Under the pieces are notes generated by a model. That model did not search any database. It saw only the letters and a list, made by a program, of their open reading frames with translations, and was not told where the DNA came from. From NCBI GenBank assembly GCA_028275705.1, contig JAPWUD010000015.1, positions 1 to 33,291 of the forward strand: a stretch of 33,291 nt of DNA. Direction: 5' to 3'. This document shows, in pieces, positions 3,252-17,934 of the stretch. The stretch comes from Desulfurococcaceae archaeon. Lineage in GTDB: Archaea; Thermoproteota; Thermoprotei_A; Sulfolobales; Desulfurococcaceae. A program made the position numbers and the translations under genes. Each line of letters begins with the position of its first letter. Position 1 is the first letter of the stretch.

Positions 3252-4163
3252 TTGAGGAGTGTTATTGCCTTTAAGTTGACTGGTGCTTATAGGGGATTTG
3301 TCTACTCGGCTTTGTTCTCGCTACTTGGCTTACTCATTGAGTCATTGTTCTTTGTCTACTATGGTGGCATTATACTGTTAACCGACATTGTGCACTGGGC
3401 TGTTGACACATTGGTTGAGGTTTTTGGTTTAATTGTACTATACTACGCTGTGAGGTTTGGTAGGAGGTTTCCATGGAGTATACTAGTACTGGAGAGCGCC
3501 GCAATGCTACTATCTATAATAATGGCACTTGGAATATACATCTTCTTCTTCAGTAGCTACATAACTTCAGAGTTCGCAATGGGCGAGCCCACAACGAGAA
3601 GCCCCATTCCCGCATTAGCCACTACTATAGGTGGGTTATTGACTGGATTAACTCTAGTCATACAGGTGAAGAACTATAGACTATACGAGCTTGAGGTTTT
3701 AAGGGTAGACTACACCCACGCCTTAATAGACTTAATCGCGGCGTTTTCTGCAACGATAGGTATACTATTAGTATACACCACTAGGAGTCAAAGCCTAGAA
3801 TTACTATTCACATTGATAACTACAATGTTCATAGTCCACAGTCTTCTCGAAATACTGAGGGATATAGTGAAAACCATCACAGGGTCGAATATAGACTACG
3901 AGCTAAGTAATAGACTACTAAAGAAATTAGTAAATGAACTTAAGGGAGTATATATAGAGGACATTATTGCACGGAAAATAGGGTCTTTCTACATTGTTGA
4001 AGCAAGAATTGGTGTAGACCCATACGAGAAGCTAGTAGCAATCCATAAACTAAGAAATAGGATAGTAAACACTGTTATTAACGAGTCTGATCTAATATAC
4101 CACGTCGACGTGAAGTTCTACCCATTGAAAACAAAGTATAGGAGGGGTTCAGCTCTCATATGA
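3252..4163 (+). CDS. Cation diffusion facilitator (CDF)-like membrane transporter
   Basis: 303 residues with about six hydrophobic helices and a cytoplasmic C-terminal tail of about 90 residues. Helix 2 carries LLTDIVHWAVDTLVE and helix 5 carries DYTHALIDLIAA; these correspond to the D/H-x3-D metal sites of the CDF family, which exports Zn, Fe, Mn or Co. The sequence is more divergent than the second CDF gene at 12416-13309, with a longer loop between helices 3 and 4. The start is TTG 3252 with GGGGTG upstream. Its last 15 bases overlap the end of a convergent tnpB frame, and the transposon right end lies immediately downstream, so the native 3' region may have been altered by the insertion. 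Metal specificity cannot be read. Confidence 0.8.
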   Translation: MRSVIAFKLTGAYRGFVYSALFSLLGLLIESLFFVYYGGIILLTDIVHWAVDTLVEVFGLIVLYYAVRFGRRFPWSILVLESAAMLLSIIMALGIYIFFFSSYITSEFAMGEPTTRSPIPALATTIGGLLTGLTLVIQVKNYRLYELEVLRVDYTHALIDLIAAFSATIGILLVYTTRSQSLELLFTLITTMFIVHSLLEILRDIVKTITGSNIDYELSNRLLKKLVNELKGVYIEDIIARKIGSFYIVEARIGVDPYEKLVAIHKLRNRIVNTVINESDLIYHVDVKFYPLKTKYRRGSALI

Positions 4164-5402
4164 GTTCATATAACTTGATGTGGGCATTGCCTCATCCTGG
4201 TTCCCCCGCATCCCGCTCGGATTCTCATCGGGCTTGGGGGCGTTCGGGGCTACCCCGGGAGCCCCACATCTTGAGTGTTTGAATACATATTTCCTGTAGA
4301 GGTTTAATGTTGCAGTAACATCTCTATCACCTATGAAGCCGCACTCCCTACATCTCAATACTCTATGCCCGTATTCAACTAGTTTTCCAATGCACCTAGG
4401 GCACTTCGATGAAGTGCCCCTGGGATTAATTTTAACTACTTCGAGATTCCTCTCTCTAGCTTCATACTCTATGCAGAACTGTATTCTACGGTAGAACCAC
4501 AGTCCAAGCTTCTTATTGAATCTCTTATCCTTCTTATTGTTCTCCCTCAGTTCATCCAGGTCTTCAAGGACTACTACCGAGTGGTATTTGAGTGCTAATT
4601 CGGCTATTAAATCCCCTATCTTATGGGAGTAGTCCCAAGAGATGTTCTTAATCTTCTTTCCATGTCTCTTAATGGCTTTTCTAACACCCTTGATAAACCT
4701 CCATGACTTCGGATACCTCCTCTGGATCCTCTCAATCCAGATTTTATATGTCAAGATCTTCCTGTGAGGTGTCTTAAACCTCTTCAACTTCGTTAGCCTA
4801 CCATTAAGAGTAAATATGGCTATTGTTACATTGTCGAAGTTTAGATCGATTGCCATTACTGACTTGGGTTTTATTGTCTTAACAATTCTCCTAAAGTATA
4901 CTGAGACCCAGAACTCATTATCCTCGTACTTTACAACTATCTCGTAGTTGCTCCAACCCCTATACTTCTCAATCCTCTCTCTAGATGTTACTAGCTTTAA
5001 TTTAGCCTCGTAGTCGCTGTGTAGCTTCAGTGTTAAAACCATGTTGTCTAAGTCTAACCCGTAGTCGTACTTGTCTATCCTAGCGCTCAGCCTCCTGAGA
5101 ACCGGCTTTCTACCACCATTACTCCTGGCTGAGTCAACTAGGCTCTCAGCGTATACATATATCTCCTTAGCGTGGTGTGCTCTAAGCCCACGTCCCACCA
5201 AGTCGCTGTAGAATAGCCTGTGTAGCTTCTTCCAGGAGAGCTTTTTATTAATACTCCAAATCCTGTCAACAACCGATTGGACTGCATCACGGTATAGCCT
5301 CAGGAACTCCAGTAAATGGTCATAACTACCCTCGGGGAGAGCCCTCGCCTTCAAAGCCTCAACAACGGTGGGCTCTTCACCCCTCACGGAGTAGCTCACC
5401 AT
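4149..5402 (-). CDS. tnpB: TnpB, RNA-guided nuclease of an IS200/IS605-family element (no tnpA)
   Basis: 417 residues with all parts of an intact TnpB: RuvC-I Asp186 (VMAIDLNFD), RuvC-II Glu280 (VVVLEDLDEL), zinc ribbon Cys334, Cys337, Cys351, Cys354 (CPRC...CREC) and RuvC-III Asp361 (GDRDVTATLN). TnpB proteins use an RNA made from the transposon right end to cut DNA at the donor or target site, helping the element persist. No Y1 transposase gene accompanies it, so it is a solo element that would need TnpA in trans. A TATA box (5426-5433) centred 27 bases before ATG 5402 predicts a leaderless mRNA. The C-terminal residues after about Ser409 appear to be coded outside the transposon end, overlapping the CDF-like gene. 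Confidence 0.93.
   Translation of the reverse strand: MVSYSVRGEEPTVVEALKARALPEGSYDHLLEFLRLYRDAVQSVVDRIWSINKKLSWKKLHRLFYSDLVGRGLRAHHAKEIYVYAESLVDSARSNGGRKPVLRRLSARIDKYDYGLDLDNMVLTLKLHSDYEAKLKLVTSRERIEKYRGWSNYEIVVKYEDNEFWVSVYFRRIVKTIKPKSVMAIDLNFDNVTIAIFTLNGRLTKLKRFKTPHRKILTYKIWIERIQRRYPKSWRFIKGVRKAIKRHGKKIKNISWDYSHKIGDLIAELALKYHSVVVLEDLDELRENNKKDKRFNKKLGLWFYRRIQFCIEYEARERNLEVVKINPRGTSSKCPRCIGKLVEYGHRVLRCRECGFIGDRDVTATLNLYRKYVFKHSRCGAPGVAPNAPKPDENPSGMRGNQDEAMPTSSYMNSYES
4160..4330 (-). ncRNA. Predicted omega (re)RNA region of the solo TnpB
   Basis: Known for TnpB: the guide RNA scaffold comes from the 3' end of tnpB plus the right end, and the guide is the flanking DNA beyond it. Here the 3' coding region ends in an imperfect hairpin (GATG..GGC ATT GCC.CATC, 4177-4196); the guide would be the bases just below about 4176, inside or next to the CDF-like gene end. 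Boundaries are inferred. Confidence 0.35.
4177..4196. repeat. Right-end hairpin of the solo TnpB element
   Basis: Imperfect palindrome: outer arms GATG (4177-4180) and CATC (4193-4196), inner arms GGC (4183-4185) and GCC (4189-4191) around ATT. Subterminal hairpins of this kind are the TnpA recognition structures of IS200/IS605 ends. Confidence 0.5.
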
Positions 5403-8602: not shown

Positions 8603-9919
8603 TCACAGTGGAACACTTGGAGTATATAAGTCTCGGCTGGACAGATCTGACCTCCTCCCCGCCATGAATTGTGAGGGTTCTGCGGGGAGGTTTGGGATTA
8701 CATCCCCTCTTCCCGAGGGTTTAATCCCGGGCCGGGTCTCCAGCCCATTACCCCTATCCCTCTCGGGACTCGGGGTTATGAGTATGTTGTATGCTCCTAC
8801 TAGGTCTGCATTGAATACCTTGTTTAGCTTGGTGCATTTGAATAGTCCACGCTTAATTCTCTTCCCGCATCCTGGGCCGTGTACTGGACACTTGGACGAT
8901 GTATATGCCTCGTTTACGTAGACCACTGTTATTCCATATTCCTCTGCAACCTCGTAGATTCTCTTCAGCAGGTAGCCATATGTCCATATGTGGACATTGT
9001 TGAAGTCTCCGTTCTCTTGAGCAATGTTCTTAGGGTAGCCGATCTTTATAATAGAGACTCCCACGCTATAAAGCCACTCAATTACCTGTCTAACCCTTGA
9101 GTCAATATAGGCTTTGACCTGTCTCCTCCACTTGGAGTACATAGACCTAAGCCTCCTAGACATCCTCAAGCCATACCCATTCAGCGTAGACTGGTACTCA
9201 GCAATCCCCATCCTCCAGTAGTGGGATACCGCTTTGAGTGGTCTGCCATTAACAAGCTTTACTAAACCGTTCTCAACGTATATAGCCATTAAATTGTTAA
9301 TACCGATATCAATGCCCGCCACTAGATCCCCTCTCGGTCTCTTCGGGATGCTAGCCCAGATCCCCCTGATGGCTTTCTCACTCACCTCGAATGATATGTG
9401 TGCATACCACTTCCCCCTGTCTTGGTCGTAGTGTATCTCCAGCCTACCTTGCTCCCCCCTCAGGTGTACTAAGCCCTTGTACTTCAGCACCATCCTTCCA
9501 ACAACCCCCAGCCCTTTGAGGATTATTTTATCGTCCTCTACCTTGTACTGGTCTCTCCTTAGGACAGTCCATAGAGTCCTCTTATTGTTTTTCTTCTTGT
9601 AGCCTGGCGGGTTAACCCTCGTGATGAATGGCGGTAGCTTACCCTCTTTCTTAAGCTTTAGTAGCTTGAAGAAGCTCCTCCAAGCCTCATCATTCTTATT
9701 CAAAACTTGCTGTGCTGTGGCAGAACCTATGAGTGTTTTATACTTCTCGTAGAACTCCTTGTACGTTGCTTTGAGGTCTACTCCCCTCTTCTTGAAGAAC
9801 ATCCTCCTCCTAGCGTAGTTAACCTCGTTCCACAGCTTAGATGATAAATTGCAGAGTAACTTCAGCCTCTCCTCAGAGCTCTTATCGACTACGAGCTCTA
9901 CTACGCTAGTCCTCCTCAT
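8603..9919 (-). CDS. tnpB: TnpB/OrfB of a complete IS200/IS605 element
   Basis: About 438 residues from ATG 9919, whose ATGA overlaps the tnpA stop; the frame is also open to a GTG at 9934 (443 residues, numbering used here). Features: RuvC-I Asp209 (AGIDIGINN), RuvC-III Asp377 (FNADLVGAYNIL), and a reduced zinc region with Cys349, Cys356, Cys367. At the usual RuvC-II position there is Gly299 (SIIKIGYPKNIAQ) rather than Glu; Glu342 in VNEAYTSSKCP may take its role, as in TnpB branches with a rearranged active site. It is partner and nuclease of the neighbouring Y1 transposase. The last 15 or so residues after GRRSDL are coded beyond the transposon right end. A 3' relic of a related copy lies at 1536-1690. 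Confidence 0.9.
   Translation of the reverse strand: MRRTSVVELVVDKSSEERLKLLCNLSSKLWNEVNYARRRMFFKKRGVDLKATYKEFYEKYKTLIGSATAQQVLNKNDEAWRSFFKLLKLKKEGKLPPFITRVNPPGYKKKNNKRTLWTVLRRDQYKVEDDKIILKGLGVVGRMVLKYKGLVHLRGEQGRLEIHYDQDRGKWYAHISFEVSEKAIRGIWASIPKRPRGDLVAGIDIGINNLMAIYVENGLVKLVNGRPLKAVSHYWRMGIAEYQSTLNGYGLRMSRRLRSMYSKWRRQVKAYIDSRVRQVIEWLYSVGVSIIKIGYPKNIAQENGDFNNVHIWTYGYLLKRIYEVAEEYGITVVYVNEAYTSSKCPVHGPGCGKRIKRGLFKCTKLNKVFNADLVGAYNILITPSPERDRGNGLETRPGIKPSGRGDVIPNLPAEPSQFMAGRRSDLSSRDLYTPSVPL
8630..8800 (-). ncRNA. Predicted omega (re)RNA region of the IS200/IS605 element
   Basis: By analogy with characterised TnpB systems the scaffold would come from the last part of tnpB and the right-end hairpin (8654-8690), and the guide from the flank below about 8650. 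The 8691-8800 stretch is conserved in the degenerate copy at 1536-1690, consistent with an RNA constraint, but I cannot test expression or exact ends. Confidence 0.35.
8654..8690. repeat. Right-end hairpin of the IS200/IS605 element
   Basis: Perfect 9-bp arms CCTCCCCGC (8654-8662) and GCGGGGAGG (8682-8690) with a 19-base loop. It lies within the tnpB reading frame. It would be the TnpA recognition structure and the terminal stem of the guide RNA scaffold. Confidence 0.7.
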
Positions 9920-10344
9920 TTCTCCTTCTCCCACTGCTCCTCAACATACTTCCTAACAATATCTGCTGTTACGTTTCCAACGGTTGCTACGAAGTAGTTC
10001 CTACTCCACAGCTTCCCACGGGTAGTTTTAGTCTTCAGCTCTGGAAACCTCTGCAGTATCCTCCTAGCACTCTTCCCCTTAAGGTAGTTCACGATATAGG
10101 CTGGAGAGTGCCTTGGAGGGCATAATGCAAACACATGGACATGGTCAGGCATGACCTCTAGGGCTAGTGGCTTGCATTCCAACTCCTTGAGTATTTCCTT
10201 TAAGACCTCTCTAGTGTACTCAGCAACCTCCCCCACAAGTATATCCCTACGGTACTTGGGAATCCACACAAAGTGATATCCACACCAATACCTAGCATGC
10301 CTAGTACTCCTAGGCCTCAACCACCCTAGAGATTCGCCCTCCAA
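9916..10344 (-). CDS. tnpA: Y1 (HUH) transposase TnpA of IS200/IS605 family
   Basis: 142 residues, standard family size. The HUH motif is HVHVF with His68 and His70; the nucleophile is Tyr133 in IVRKYVEEQ, with Gln137 as the third metal ligand; WSRNYFVATVGNVT is the conserved segment ahead of it. It cuts and joins single-stranded transposon ends. The start is TTG 10344 with GGGGAG (10349-10354) upstream and a TATA box (GCTTATAAG, 10378-10386) at the expected distance. Its stop overlaps the tnpB ATG as ATGA, so translation is coupled. Confidence 0.93.
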   Translation of the reverse strand: MEGESLGWLRPRSTRHARYWCGYHFVWIPKYRRDILVGEVAEYTREVLKEILKELECKPLALEVMPDHVHVFALCPPRHSPAYIVNYLKGKSARRILQRFPELKTKTTRGKLWSRNYFVATVGNVTADIVRKYVEEQWEKEK

Positions 10345-14069: not shown

Positions 14070-14675
14070 CTATGAAATCAATCTCCCACTGCTCCATATG
14101 GATTCAATATACTTCTCTACCTGGCTCGCTAGCTCACTCGAGTTCACTAGTAGAGTTGTCTCGTGGTTGTACTTTAACGCACTCTCAGTCCAGTTGTGGC
14201 TACCTATGAACACGTATTGATCATCTATAACAACGATCTTGCAGTGAGTGGTTTTACCCTGAGATTCGTCGAGCCTCACGGGTACACCGTTCCCAACGAG
14301 GTAGTTGATAGTTTCTGGATAACTATTCTTTGTTTCATCATCAACAACAACCTTTACATCTACACCTCTCTTGTGTAGATCAACTAGCTTCCTCAATATG
14401 ACGTTAACAGGGTCATTATATTGACTTGCATCATATTTAACCGCATACATTACAACATACACACTTCTATTAGCTTGATCCAGGTACCACGTGATGTTCC
14501 CATAGTACGTGTCGTCAGGTAGGAATAAAACATTGTTTTGCGGAATGAACACACCCCGGGTGCTAGGTTGCTCGGGACTCTGCGAGATCTGTATTGCTGT
14601 AAAATACCCTATAATAACCCCAAGTATAAACACTACTACTAATGCCCATACAACATCGCTCTTTACGCGGGGCAA
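14070..14675 (-). CDS. Membrane-anchored phospholipase D-family (Nuc-like) protein
   Basis: 201 residues. An N-terminal helix (VVWALVVVFILGVIIGYFTA, about 8-27) anchors it with the rest outside. A single PLD domain follows, with one HKD motif THCKIVVIDDQYVFIGSHNW (His143 region), and GVDVKVVVDDE before it. Single-motif members work as dimers and include Nuc-type endonucleases. TTG 14675 has GGAGG 10 bases upstream, and a TATA-like TTTTTATAC lies at about 14729-14737. An exported nuclease for scavenging DNA is plausible; phospholipase activity would be less expected. It is next to folE but separately started. Confidence 0.85.
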   Translation of the reverse strand: MPRVKSDVVWALVVVFILGVIIGYFTAIQISQSPEQPSTRGVFIPQNNVLFLPDDTYYGNITWYLDQANRSVYVVMYAVKYDASQYNDPVNVILRKLVDLHKRGVDVKVVVDDETKNSYPETINYLVGNGVPVRLDESQGKTTHCKIVVIDDQYVFIGSHNWTESALKYNHETTLLVNSSELASQVEKYIESIWSSGRLIS

Positions 14676-14902: not shown

Positions 14903-15586
14903 TTAGTTCTTCCTCACGGTGGTTTTAATAGTGTTCTCCACTGTTATCCAATCTATTAATGTTCTACGTGTTTCACACCTAACCGGGTGCTCGAGTATAG
15001 TGTATGGTATTGTCTTAAACCCTCCTTGCTTAACTGGGTGTTTCACTAACTCAGCTGTTATCACTTTCTTCCCCCGTGACAACTTAGTAATTACTTTCAC
15101 TACGTGGTGGTGGAAGCTTCCTCCTTCTGGTCTTCTCTCCCCAAACTTAGTTATGGTATTAAATAACAATACCTGGTTCCTAGATGCAACCCTCGAGATT
15201 AACCCGGTGATCCACGTTGCTTCACTATAGTGTAGTGGATCCCTCGAGACATAGTTATAAGGGTAGAGGACTAGTACTAAGCCATTGCTAATTGATGCTA
15301 TGGACTCTAAAGCATCAACGGTATCACTTAGTCTAAAAGCCCTTGATACAACAATATTTTCTAGTCTACAATCAAGGATTCTACACAGCCTAATGAGGTA
15401 TAGTGTATCCAAACCCCCAAACTCCATGTTAAACAATACATAGACTCTCTCACTCCTACTCCTATAAGCCATAGTGTAGTGGAATACTCGGAGCACTGGG
15501 TCTTGATCACCGTAAACCTCGAAAACCCACTCCCTCCTAATGGGGTTAACAAGATCATCCAATTGCTTAATACCGGTAATGTTCAC
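14903..15586 (-). CDS. Inactivated RecA/RadA-like paralogue, Dpo2 neighbour
   Basis: About 227 residues from GTG 15586, placed about 30 bases after a TATATAAAG box; the frame is open to TTG 15607. ITGIKQLDDLV at the start and the strand order resemble RadA/KaiC-type RecA folds, but the Walker A position reads FEVYGDQDPVLRVF with no GKT/GKS, and the Walker B strand LVLVLYPYNYV has no Asp. ATP binding is thus probably lost. Genes for such degenerate RecA-fold proteins sit beside crenarchaeal dpo2; a recombinase-like accessory or loading factor for the polymerase is my inference. It follows the 79-codon gene by 30-50 bases on the same strand, but has its own promoter. Confidence 0.7.
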   Translation of the reverse strand: MNITGIKQLDDLVNPIRREWVFEVYGDQDPVLRVFHYTMAYRSRSERVYVLFNMEFGGLDTLYLIRLCRILDCRLENIVVSRAFRLSDTVDALESIASISNGLVLVLYPYNYVSRDPLHYSEATWITGLISRVASRNQVLLFNTITKFGERRPEGGSFHHHVVKVITKLSRGKKVITAELVKHPVKQGGFKTIPYTILEHPVRCETRRTLIDWITVENTIKTTVRKN

Positions 15587-15614
15587 AAAGCCCCGGTTTA
15601 AAAACAAGTACTTT

Positions 15615-15623
15615 ATATACTAG
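15615..15623 (-). promoter_or_regulatory. TATA box of the RecA-like gene
   Basis: Minus-strand TATATAAAG lies in the gap after the 79-codon gene; its distance favours GTG 15586 over TTG 15607 as the start. Confidence 0.5.
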
Positions 15624-15637
15624 AGGGGTTGCCAAAA

Positions 15638-15871
15638 CTAATCTCTGCAGCACTCGCAGAGTTCTCCAATTCTCCTAACAAGGTGTAGTATGAATAACTC
15701 AAGTGGGTCAACAACCCCTAGGTGCATGTATAGAGATAGAGTATCATCTAAGCCCTCAAGATACTTCTCAACAAGCAATCTCTCACGTTGAGGCAGTAAC
15801 TCAGATACTTTCCTAAACCTCTCAACATACTCTTTTGCAACAATCCTCAGAGACGGAGTAGTTCTACCCAC
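15638..15871 (-). CDS. Small conserved-type helical protein beside Dpo2
   Basis: 77 residues from GTG 15871, which has GGGGA 6 bases upstream; TTG 15877 is directly against that site and so less likely. All-helical, charged: LRIVAKEYVERFRKVSELLP, then RERLLVEKYLEGLDDTLSLY, and a C-terminal Cys cluster GELCECCRD. The Cys residues could bind metal or form disulfides. I cannot name a family; its place between a RecA-like gene and the divergent polymerase suggests a role in the same process. Confidence 0.6.
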   Translation of the reverse strand: MGRTTPSLRIVAKEYVERFRKVSELLPQRERLLVEKYLEGLDDTLSLYMHLGVVDPLELFILHLVRRIGELCECCRD

Positions 15872-15902
15872 GGTCAATCCCCGAGCACACTATACACTCA
15901 TG

Positions 15903-15912
15903 AACAATTGTT
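15903..15912. repeat. 10-bp palindrome in the dpo2 divergent promoter
   Basis: AACAATTGTT, perfect. It lies between the two divergent transcription units and overlaps the likely TATA region of the minus-strand unit; it may be an operator or only part of that promoter. Confidence 0.4.
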
Positions 15913-15930
15913 AAGTAGCTGGGAGGAAAT

Positions 15931-15956
15931 ACTTTCACCCACCCCTTGTTTAAAAA
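15931..15956 (+). promoter_or_regulatory. dpo2 promoter with possible damage-response hexamer
   Basis: ACTTTC at 15931-15936 fits ANTTTC, the hexamer reported upstream of DNA-damage-induced genes in Sulfolobales. TTTAAAAA at 15949-15956 is the TATA box, 12 bases downstream. The hexamer could occur by chance. Confidence 0.4.
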
Positions 15957-15981
15957 CCCCGTGCTTTATATGGGGGTTGTT

Positions 15982-17934
15982 TTGGCTAAGTGGTTTTTAG
16001 ATGCTTATGTATCTAGTGGATGGGTTTTCCTAGTGTTCTACGATGAGGACTCCCACTCTTTAGAGACTCGTAGATTCGACTTAGATCTCTACGGATACAT
16101 AGCTGGTGGAGAGCCTGGATTGATTGCAGCCGAGTTGAAAGGTATTGATGGGGTTTTAGATGCATGGGTTGAAGACTGGAGGACTCCGCCATTCTACGAC
16201 TCCCTGAAGCCCGTAGTGGTGTTTAAAACAAGGAGTTATAATGTATTGAGGAGTATCCTTGGATTAGCTAGTGTTAAGGGGCTTAGAGTTGTCAATACAT
16301 ACCCCCACCCACTTGTAGAGGCACTATATAGAGCTGGAATTCAACCAGTTACACCGGTTAAGAGCTTGAGTAATGGCGGAGTTAAAACCACCAAGTGGGA
16401 TCCAGGCATGGCAGACCCCGTGCTAAATTACGCTTTAGTAGGCTTTGAAGACGGGTACTATGTTCTAGAGTCTCCGGAGAGTAGAGAGAAGTTTTGGAGT
16501 ATAGAGGAGTTAGCTGAACACCTCTCATCGAGGAGGCTACACCTTGGCTTTGCGGACCCTTACGTATACTCTAGGCTAATAGAAGTTGAGCCTGAGATCG
16601 CTAGTGTTGCATATAGATGGGTTACTGGCGGCTTTTACAGTCCACACGAGTACTTTGAGTGGAGTAGGTTGTCTTATACCCCCTTGAGTTTAATGAATAA
16701 CATCACTATTGGAAGAGTCTTGACAACCATTGAGGCGCTGTATGCTAGAGATAGAAAGATTATTGTTGATAAATCACGTGGTAGGCGTGAGGGGTGGAGG
16801 AGTATTAGTGAGCTCCTATTGTTCGACCGCGGTGGAGTAGTATACCAGCCTAAACCAGGACTCTACTGGTGGGTTTGCCAAATAGACTTCAAGAGTCTTT
16901 ATCCAAGTATAATGGTGAAGTATAATGTCTCAGGGGAGACTATTGATAAGCCAAACTGTGGAACCCCCGTGAAGCCCGAGTGGACTCCACACACTATATG
17001 CTTAGACGAGGAAGGCATTGTATCTGCGAGTATAGGGAGGCTCATAGATCTCAAGGACGTCTATGATAAGCTCTACAAGGAGACTGGCGATACCGTATAC
17101 GAGGAGAGGAAGAAGGCTGTTAAATGGATACTTGTCGCCAGCTTCGGCTACTTGGGGTATAGGAATAGCTTATTCGGCTCTGTCATGGCCCATGAAGTCG
17201 TAACTAGTACTAGTAGAGAGGTGTTGAGGAGAGCTAGACTCGTAGTCGAGGAAATGGGTTATAGAGTGGTGCATGGTATTGTTGATAGCTTATTCGTAGC
17301 TGGCGTGGGAGAGCCGAGCGAGTGCAACTGTGTAAAGGACCAAATTGTCGAGGAGACAGGCTTCGATGCAAAGGTTGAAGCACACTACGTGTGGCTCTAC
17401 ATACCTAGGTGCCTTAATAGTAGTGATAGTGTTGCGAACAAGTACTATGGATTGCTAACAAGTGGCTTTTGGAAAGTAAAGGGTGTAATGGCTGTGCGTA
17501 GTGATACACCACCACTAGTTAAGAAAGCAGAGTTGGAGGCTTTAGCTAAGTTGTTTGAGGCTAGAACACCGAGTGAGCTAGAGGAGAAGATCGAGAAGGC
17601 TAACCACGTAATAGATGAATACATAGAGCTAGTTGAGAAGAGAGAGGTTGATCCAAGAGAACTCGTAGTTTCAAGGACTAGTGGTGTTAGAGATAGATAT
17701 AGAAGACCCCCTAGATACGTCTTGGAGTCTAAGCCCCCGTATAGATTAATATATATTAACGGTGAGCTAGTGCCATTCGAGAAAGCACTAAATAGAAGTT
17801 ACGATGTAGATAAATACGTTGAACTACTGGAGAAAACCCGTAGAGAGCTGCCTTCGCGAATAGACCTACTAAATAGCTATGTAGAAAAAACTTTATCACG
17901 ACTTGACTTTAGCCGGGCCCCTAAAACCTGGTAA
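15982..17934 (+). CDS. dpo2: Family-B DNA polymerase Dpo2 (PolB2 type)
   Basis: 650 residues from TTG 15982. The frame is open to 15946, but that region contains the TATA box; TTG 15982 is 29 bases from its centre. Motif A CQIDFKSLYPSIM is intact (Asp302). Motif B reads KAVKWILVASFGYLGYR. Motif C, normally GDTDS, reads GIVDSLFV, so the first Asp is lost and the second (Asp435) kept. The N-terminal 280 residues lack the clear D-x-E of a proofreading exonuclease. The protein is shorter than replicative PolB1/B3 (about 780-880). This is the archaeal PolB2 class; in Saccharolobus islandicus Dpo2 is damage-induced and gives error-prone damage tolerance. Its 3' end overlaps the convergent dehydrogenase by 39 bases. 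Confidence 0.9.
   Translation: MAKWFLDAYVSSGWVFLVFYDEDSHSLETRRFDLDLYGYIAGGEPGLIAAELKGIDGVLDAWVEDWRTPPFYDSLKPVVVFKTRSYNVLRSILGLASVKGLRVVNTYPHPLVEALYRAGIQPVTPVKSLSNGGVKTTKWDPGMADPVLNYALVGFEDGYYVLESPESREKFWSIEELAEHLSSRRLHLGFADPYVYSRLIEVEPEIASVAYRWVTGGFYSPHEYFEWSRLSYTPLSLMNNITIGRVLTTIEALYARDRKIIVDKSRGRREGWRSISELLLFDRGGVVYQPKPGLYWWVCQIDFKSLYPSIMVKYNVSGETIDKPNCGTPVKPEWTPHTICLDEEGIVSASIGRLIDLKDVYDKLYKETGDTVYEERKKAVKWILVASFGYLGYRNSLFGSVMAHEVVTSTSREVLRRARLVVEEMGYRVVHGIVDSLFVAGVGEPSECNCVKDQIVEETGFDAKVEAHYVWLYIPRCLNSSDSVANKYYGLLTSGFWKVKGVMAVRSDTPPLVKKAELEALAKLFEARTPSELEEKIEKANHVIDEYIELVEKREVDPRELVVSRTSGVRDRYRRPPRYVLESKPPYRLIYINGELVPFEKALNRSYDVDKYVELLEKTRRELPSRIDLLNSYVEKTLSRLDFSRAPKTW

Follow-up and report, generated by a model that had tools for sequence, protein, structure and literature searches.

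The closest described counterpart of the locus considered here is the PolB2 mutasome of archaea, in which a B-family DNA polymerase (PolB2, or Dpo2) is accompanied by iRadA and PPB2/arCOG07300 (PMC4104785; PMC11791011). The complex has been modelled with AlphaFold-Multimer at high confidence, gene fusions have also been reported, and the published descriptions name an MGRT arm in PPB2 and PCNA-binding motifs in iRadA (PMC11791011). The Dpo2 of Sulfolobus, whose motif C has no first Asp, actively extends mismatched or lesion-opposed primer ends and does not proofread (PMC8764526), and in Sulfolobus islandicus the enzyme is damage-inducible and solely responsible for targeted mutagenesis (PMC7390963). 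UV induction in Sulfolobus requires the hexamer ANTTTC at -39 to -44 from the transcription start (PMC5817253). This hexamer is bound by Orc1-2 in Sulfolobus, and in S. islandicus CedA1 is among the genes that are strongly up-regulated via Orc1-2 (PMC9738581).

The window (the whole 33,291-nucleotide stretch of DNA analysed, from a Desulfurococcaceae archaeon) is held in a 1.47-Mb genome (G000) that is 98.9% complete; among the named relatives in the collection, a Thermosphaera MAG (L002) is the closest, with a PolB2 that is 91% identical. Positions 14903-17934 comprise three genes, with PolB2 on the plus strand and PPB2, then iRadA, on the minus strand, and these very probably encode the known DNA-damage-tolerance polymerase complex, consisting of PolB2 and two helper proteins. 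The trio is already published as the PolB2 mutasome (PMC4104785; PMC11791011), and the window cassette is, as judged from its sequence, an additional example in a less common gene orientation. It shares with the published system the same three proteins, the adjacency of the genes, the inactive RadA, the MGRT arm of PPB2, the PIP-like motif of iRadA and a motif C without its first Asp. It differs in that PPB2 and iRadA diverge from PolB2, with two promoter regions, whereas published cassettes are mostly unidirectional, and in the Cys-rich tail of its PPB2, unseen in relatives. Elsewhere in the window, translations alone point to TnpB-like genes at 4149-5402 and 8603-10344, the latter adjoining a TnpA-like gene (IS200/IS605 type).

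PolB2 is encoded at 15982..17934 (plus strand). TTG 15982 is the favoured start, since the conserved protein begins at about this position in an alignment of 32 relatives; an in-frame ATG at 15970 is possible, and TTG 15946 falls inside the promoter region. Pfam DNA_pol_B (PF00136) covers residues 294-579 (E=5e-21), and NCBIfam NF004416 matches at 3.6e-74, yet under the family cut-off. Pfam gave no match to an exonuclease domain, which is to be read as the absence of a match only. The first-pass annotation had described a polymerase retaining the Asp of motif A and the second Asp of motif C but with IVDS for DTDS, and the alignment bears this out: motif A reads QIDFKSLYPS and motif C HGIVDS, and both retained Asp residues are invariant in the 32 relatives. 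All 32 of these have [IVL][IV]DS in motif C, such that the loss of the first Asp is the state of the family and no peculiarity of the window gene. The protein resembles S. islandicus Dpo2 in its B-family membership, in a motif C without its first Asp and in having no recognisable exonuclease (PMC7390963; PMC8764526), although it is only about 34-45% identical, over the matched part, to the PolB2s of family f9 (called Sulfolobaceae-like from, among others, its Y-family polymerase and cassette type). The D(K/R) loop, which meets PPB2 in the published mutasome, reads IIVDKSRGRR in the window protein and is not seen in several of the aligned relatives.

Several catalytic residues are replaced across the PolB2 family, and Makarova in 2014 put forward a non-catalytic regulatory role (PMC4104785), according to which an inactivated PolB2, together with an inactive RadA and arCOG07300, would block or clear stalled forks or regulate replication. 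The Dpo2 enzymes of S. islandicus and S. solfataricus are, however, active extenders with the same motif C state (PMC8764526), targeted mutagenesis requires that of S. islandicus (PMC7390963), and the invariance of the two remaining Asp residues also argues against inactivation, making a purely regulatory trio very improbable and an active extender polymerase the preferred reading.

The second gene, iRadA (14903..15586, minus strand), encodes a RadA/Rad51 homologue without Walker A and B; GTG 15586 is its favoured start, and TTG 15607 is possible (open reading frame 14903-15607). A profile of 27 relatives aligned with the intact RadA of the same genome over 186 columns (hhalign score 44.8, P 7e-6); none of 40 shuffled RadAs scored above 23.2. 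In this alignment, the RadA Walker A motif GEYGSGKT lies opposite GDQDPVLR and the Walker B motif LVAIDS opposite LVLVLY. As these facing stretches lack the catalytic residues, both motifs have been lost, which agrees with the earlier reading of a RecA-like protein deprived of its Walker motifs. The alignment begins at RadA position 93, the N-terminal RadA domain being missing. Database profiles barely detect iRadA (RadB, E=0.067), a sequence search against the PDB gave no match, and an AlphaFold2 model built from four sequences was poor (pLDDT 47); a PDB search with this poor model gave no match below 1e-3 and placed Rad51 entries 6th and 16th in a list that also contained unrelated folds. 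Near its C-terminus, iRadA has a PIP-like (Q/R/K)xxLxxW stretch, conserved in the 27-relative alignment (RRTLIDWI in the window, QRRLTEWL in others), in agreement with published reports of PCNA-binding motifs in iRadA (PMC11791011). A strongly conserved GGSxHHH (GGSFHHH in the window) faces GGHVLAH of RadA, at the end of the L2 DNA-binding loop (GGHxLAH). The gene is adjoined by one for a phospholipase-D-type protein (window 14070-14675); in the Thermosphaera MAG, an extra gene, decarboxylase-like by eye and absent from the window, lies between the two (L002:1600-2750).

The third protein, of 77 residues (15638..15871, minus strand), has an MGRT N-terminus and three predicted helices. Its start is GTG 15871, reading MGRTTPSLR..., and the sister MAG L002 has ATG at the same codon. 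Among the relatives surveyed, an MGR(T/S/N) N-terminus and a DPxE motif are each found in 30/30, and the AlphaFold2 model consists of three helices (pLDDT 70). Pfam and NCBIfam searches with the protein gave no match, and its identity as PPB2/arCOG07300 rests on motif and context. The first-pass annotation considered this 77-79 residue protein undescribed, but it is already known under these names, as its MGR signature indicates. The Cys tail (CECCRD) that had been singled out as a feature of the small protein is unconserved in relatives, this form being found in the window only; the tail as a metal site was accordingly rejected, CxCC occurring in the window gene only when compared with 30 relatives.

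A survey of gene neighbourhoods, proposed with the first description as a check, found the neighbourhood conserved. Single-sequence queries of 214 genomes of the order detected PolB2 in 81, iRadA in 68 and PPB2 in 56, the weakest PPB2 matches including chance ones. Outside family f9, iRadA is present in 47 of the 52 genomes with PolB2, and the other five are, on our reading of the tables, incomplete or have the gene near a contig end. In the 40 genomes with all three genes close together, PPB2 lies between iRadA and PolB2 in 38, strand flips giving three arrangements of a cassette with PPB2 in the middle: iRadA> PPB2> PolB2> (27 genomes), iRadA< PPB2> PolB2> (seven) and iRadA< PPB2< PolB2>, the type of the window (four); the remaining two read PPB2< iRadA< PolB2>. 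Three relatives of the same genus that are 95-99% complete (G084, G085 and G090) jointly lack PolB2, iRadA and PPB2; they keep CedA1 and an Orc1-2-like gene. The PolB2s of several genera in the window's own family are about 42% identical to that of the window, and those of some other families 47-59% (L009 in G005, L014 in G030, L015 in G136 and L020 in G133); this greater closeness to other families suggests horizontal transfer of the cassette.

Purified Dpo2 is active by itself (PMC8764526), and the flips in orientation imply that a single operon is unnecessary, both of which would be expected if PolB2 acted alone and iRadA and PPB2 were neighbours under common regulation with functions of their own, such as the control of recombination. 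The close co-occurrence of the genes and their almost invariable adjacency in different families, the joint absence from the three near-complete relatives of the same genus, and the gene fusions and confident models of the complex in the literature (PMC11791011) speak against this, and we regard such independence as improbable. For the window organism, we infer a predicted PolB2-iRadA-PPB2 complex from the published AlphaFold-Multimer study (PMC11791011). The proposal that a low-fidelity B-family polymerase is helped by an inactive RecA-like protein, made in the first-pass annotation by comparison with bacterial mutasomes, fits both the conserved neighbourhood and the published descriptions (PMC4104785; PMC11791011).

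Three B-family polymerases are encoded in the window genome, in which no Y-family polymerase was detected, in contrast to Sulfolobus, which also carries the Y-family Dpo4. Within the order, a Y-family polymerase was identified in 30 genomes, every one a member of family f9, and outside that family none was detected, so that in the lineage of the window PolB2 alone is recognised as a dedicated translesion polymerase.

PPB2 and PolB2 diverge from one control region, as had been proposed for all three genes; iRadA departs from that proposal, having a promoter-like gap of its own. Between PPB2 and PolB2, a match to ANTTTC, ACTTTC (15931..15936, plus strand), precedes the favoured PolB2 start by about 51 bp and is followed, before PolB2, by a TATA-like box, TTTAAAAAC (15949-15957, plus strand); the Sulfolobus ANTTTC/Orc1-2 element (PMC5817253; PMC9738581) is the same hexamer and likewise stands upstream of the TATA-like box. 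iRadA sits behind PPB2, with a 51-bp gap (to GTG 15586) that contains a TATA-like box of the TATATAAAG type (15611..15620, minus strand), conserved in the sister MAG L002 and a possible iRadA-proximal promoter, and AGTTTT (15634..15639, minus strand; -53 from the iRadA GTG), a one-base variant of ANTTTC in place of which the sister has AGTTTC. Any one occurrence of a hexamer with a free position carries little weight, and a putative ANTTTC element is supported chiefly by its position, by its spacing and by its repeated appearance at two loci that are unlinked, iRadA and cedA1. The hexamer is found at a similar position in the divergent gap of eight of nine divergent cassettes (single-base shuffles, p 0.0175) and within -45 to -70 of the iRadA start in 14/16 representatives (mean 0.76 and maximum 5 in 2000 shuffles), with 4/101 of the other open reading frames of the same loci having it at that position; because the genomes compared are related, these counts exaggerate how much of the evidence is independent. 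It also occurs at -57 of iRadA in two closely related Nitrososphaeria loci (L003 and L004).

Upstream of cedA1, ANTTTC is at the expected place in 15 of 20 genes sampled across the order, including genomes without PolB2 (shuffle control: mean 1.3, maximum 6). In the window's genome, the CedA1 gene (L079:1501-1823, on C18; NCBIfam NF041797, 107 bits, cut-off 100) has AATACTTTCGG at -56. Over the whole genome, the longer version AATANTTTCGG matches at two places: within a gene of transposase type and, as the only intergenic match, at -56 of CedA1. Genome-wide enrichment of AATANTTTCGG was rejected (two matches, against five for the reversed control); only its position upstream of cedA1 is informative. 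Of the two Cdc6 proteins of this genome, one is clearly Orc1-1-like and the other distinct, this second type being widespread in the order. The putative Orc1-2-like cdc6 gene (L075:598-1830; L075/L111, on C25) has TGAAAGTTTCGG some 20 bp ahead of its ATG, a feature shared by genera g13 and g14 and missing from most relatives; such a position would suit autoregulation. As a general feature of orc1-2-like genes, ANTTTC was rejected, being near the start in 7/26 only, with one further, internal match (G073).

The shortness of the motif, its absence from orc1-2-like genes in many of these genomes and the confinement of expression data to Sulfolobus would all be compatible with ANTTTC being a feature that promoters of these archaea generally carry upstream, unconnected with the damage response. 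We consider this unlikely, given that the hexamer occupies the relevant position in so few of the other open reading frames compared with iRadA and cedA1, and that the single intergenic match to AATANTTTCGG in the whole genome is the one ahead of CedA1. A putative damage-response element is the reading preferred here. As in Sulfolobus, ANTTTC precedes homologues of damage-response genes (cedA1 and, in part, orc1-2), although here the candidate element lies outside Sulfolobaceae. No literature report of ANTTTC outside Sulfolobus was found in an incomplete search, and its wider distribution may therefore have been reported already.

Mutasomes of the ImuA-ImuB-DnaE2 type likewise unite an error-prone polymerase with a small accessory protein and a partner of RecA fold, are damage-inducible and use other polymerase families. 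Bacterial Pol V (UmuC-UmuD'2-RecA) shows the same likeness, but it belongs to another polymerase family and uses an active RecA. No UmuD or ImuB homologue was recognised among the neighbours read, and the likeness to these bacterial systems is, by analogy, one of function only.

The sequence of events that we propose would begin with DNA damage, after which an Orc1-2-type regulator would activate (or derepress) the cassette through the ANTTTC elements. The ATPase-dead RadA would then serve as a structural adaptor holding PolB2, with the polymerase in a RadA-protomer-like site, and a PPB2 trimer would also hold PolB2, its MGRT arm reaching into the polymerase/iRadA cleft. The C-terminal PIP-like motif of iRadA may tether the complex to PCNA, and the complex, with a PolB2 devoid of proofreading, would extend mispaired or lesion-opposed primer ends, the outcome being damage tolerance, with mutations as the cost. 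Extender activity, damage induction, mutagenesis and the binding of ANTTTC by Orc1-2 would apply here by extension from the Sulfolobus papers, and we infer the predicted PCNA contact and the regulation of the cassette in the window organism. Taken as a whole, a PolB2 mutasome under damage control via Orc1-2 and ANTTTC, extending lesion-opposed ends, is in our view a highly likely explanation of the locus.

The protein set being known, the value of the window lies in adding one more well-behaved example, from a lineage whose only translesion polymerase seems to be PolB2. It is, on balance, probable that an Orc1-2/ANTTTC regulon is conserved across Desulfurococcales, and perhaps Nitrososphaeria, where it would drive both the PolB2 mutasome and Ced DNA import, the mutasome being the only dedicated translesion and mutagenesis machinery of these lineages, in which Y-family polymerases went undetected. 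The conserved element suggests that a single archaeal damage response, joining a replication-initiator-like regulator, lesion bypass and DNA import, extends well beyond Sulfolobus.
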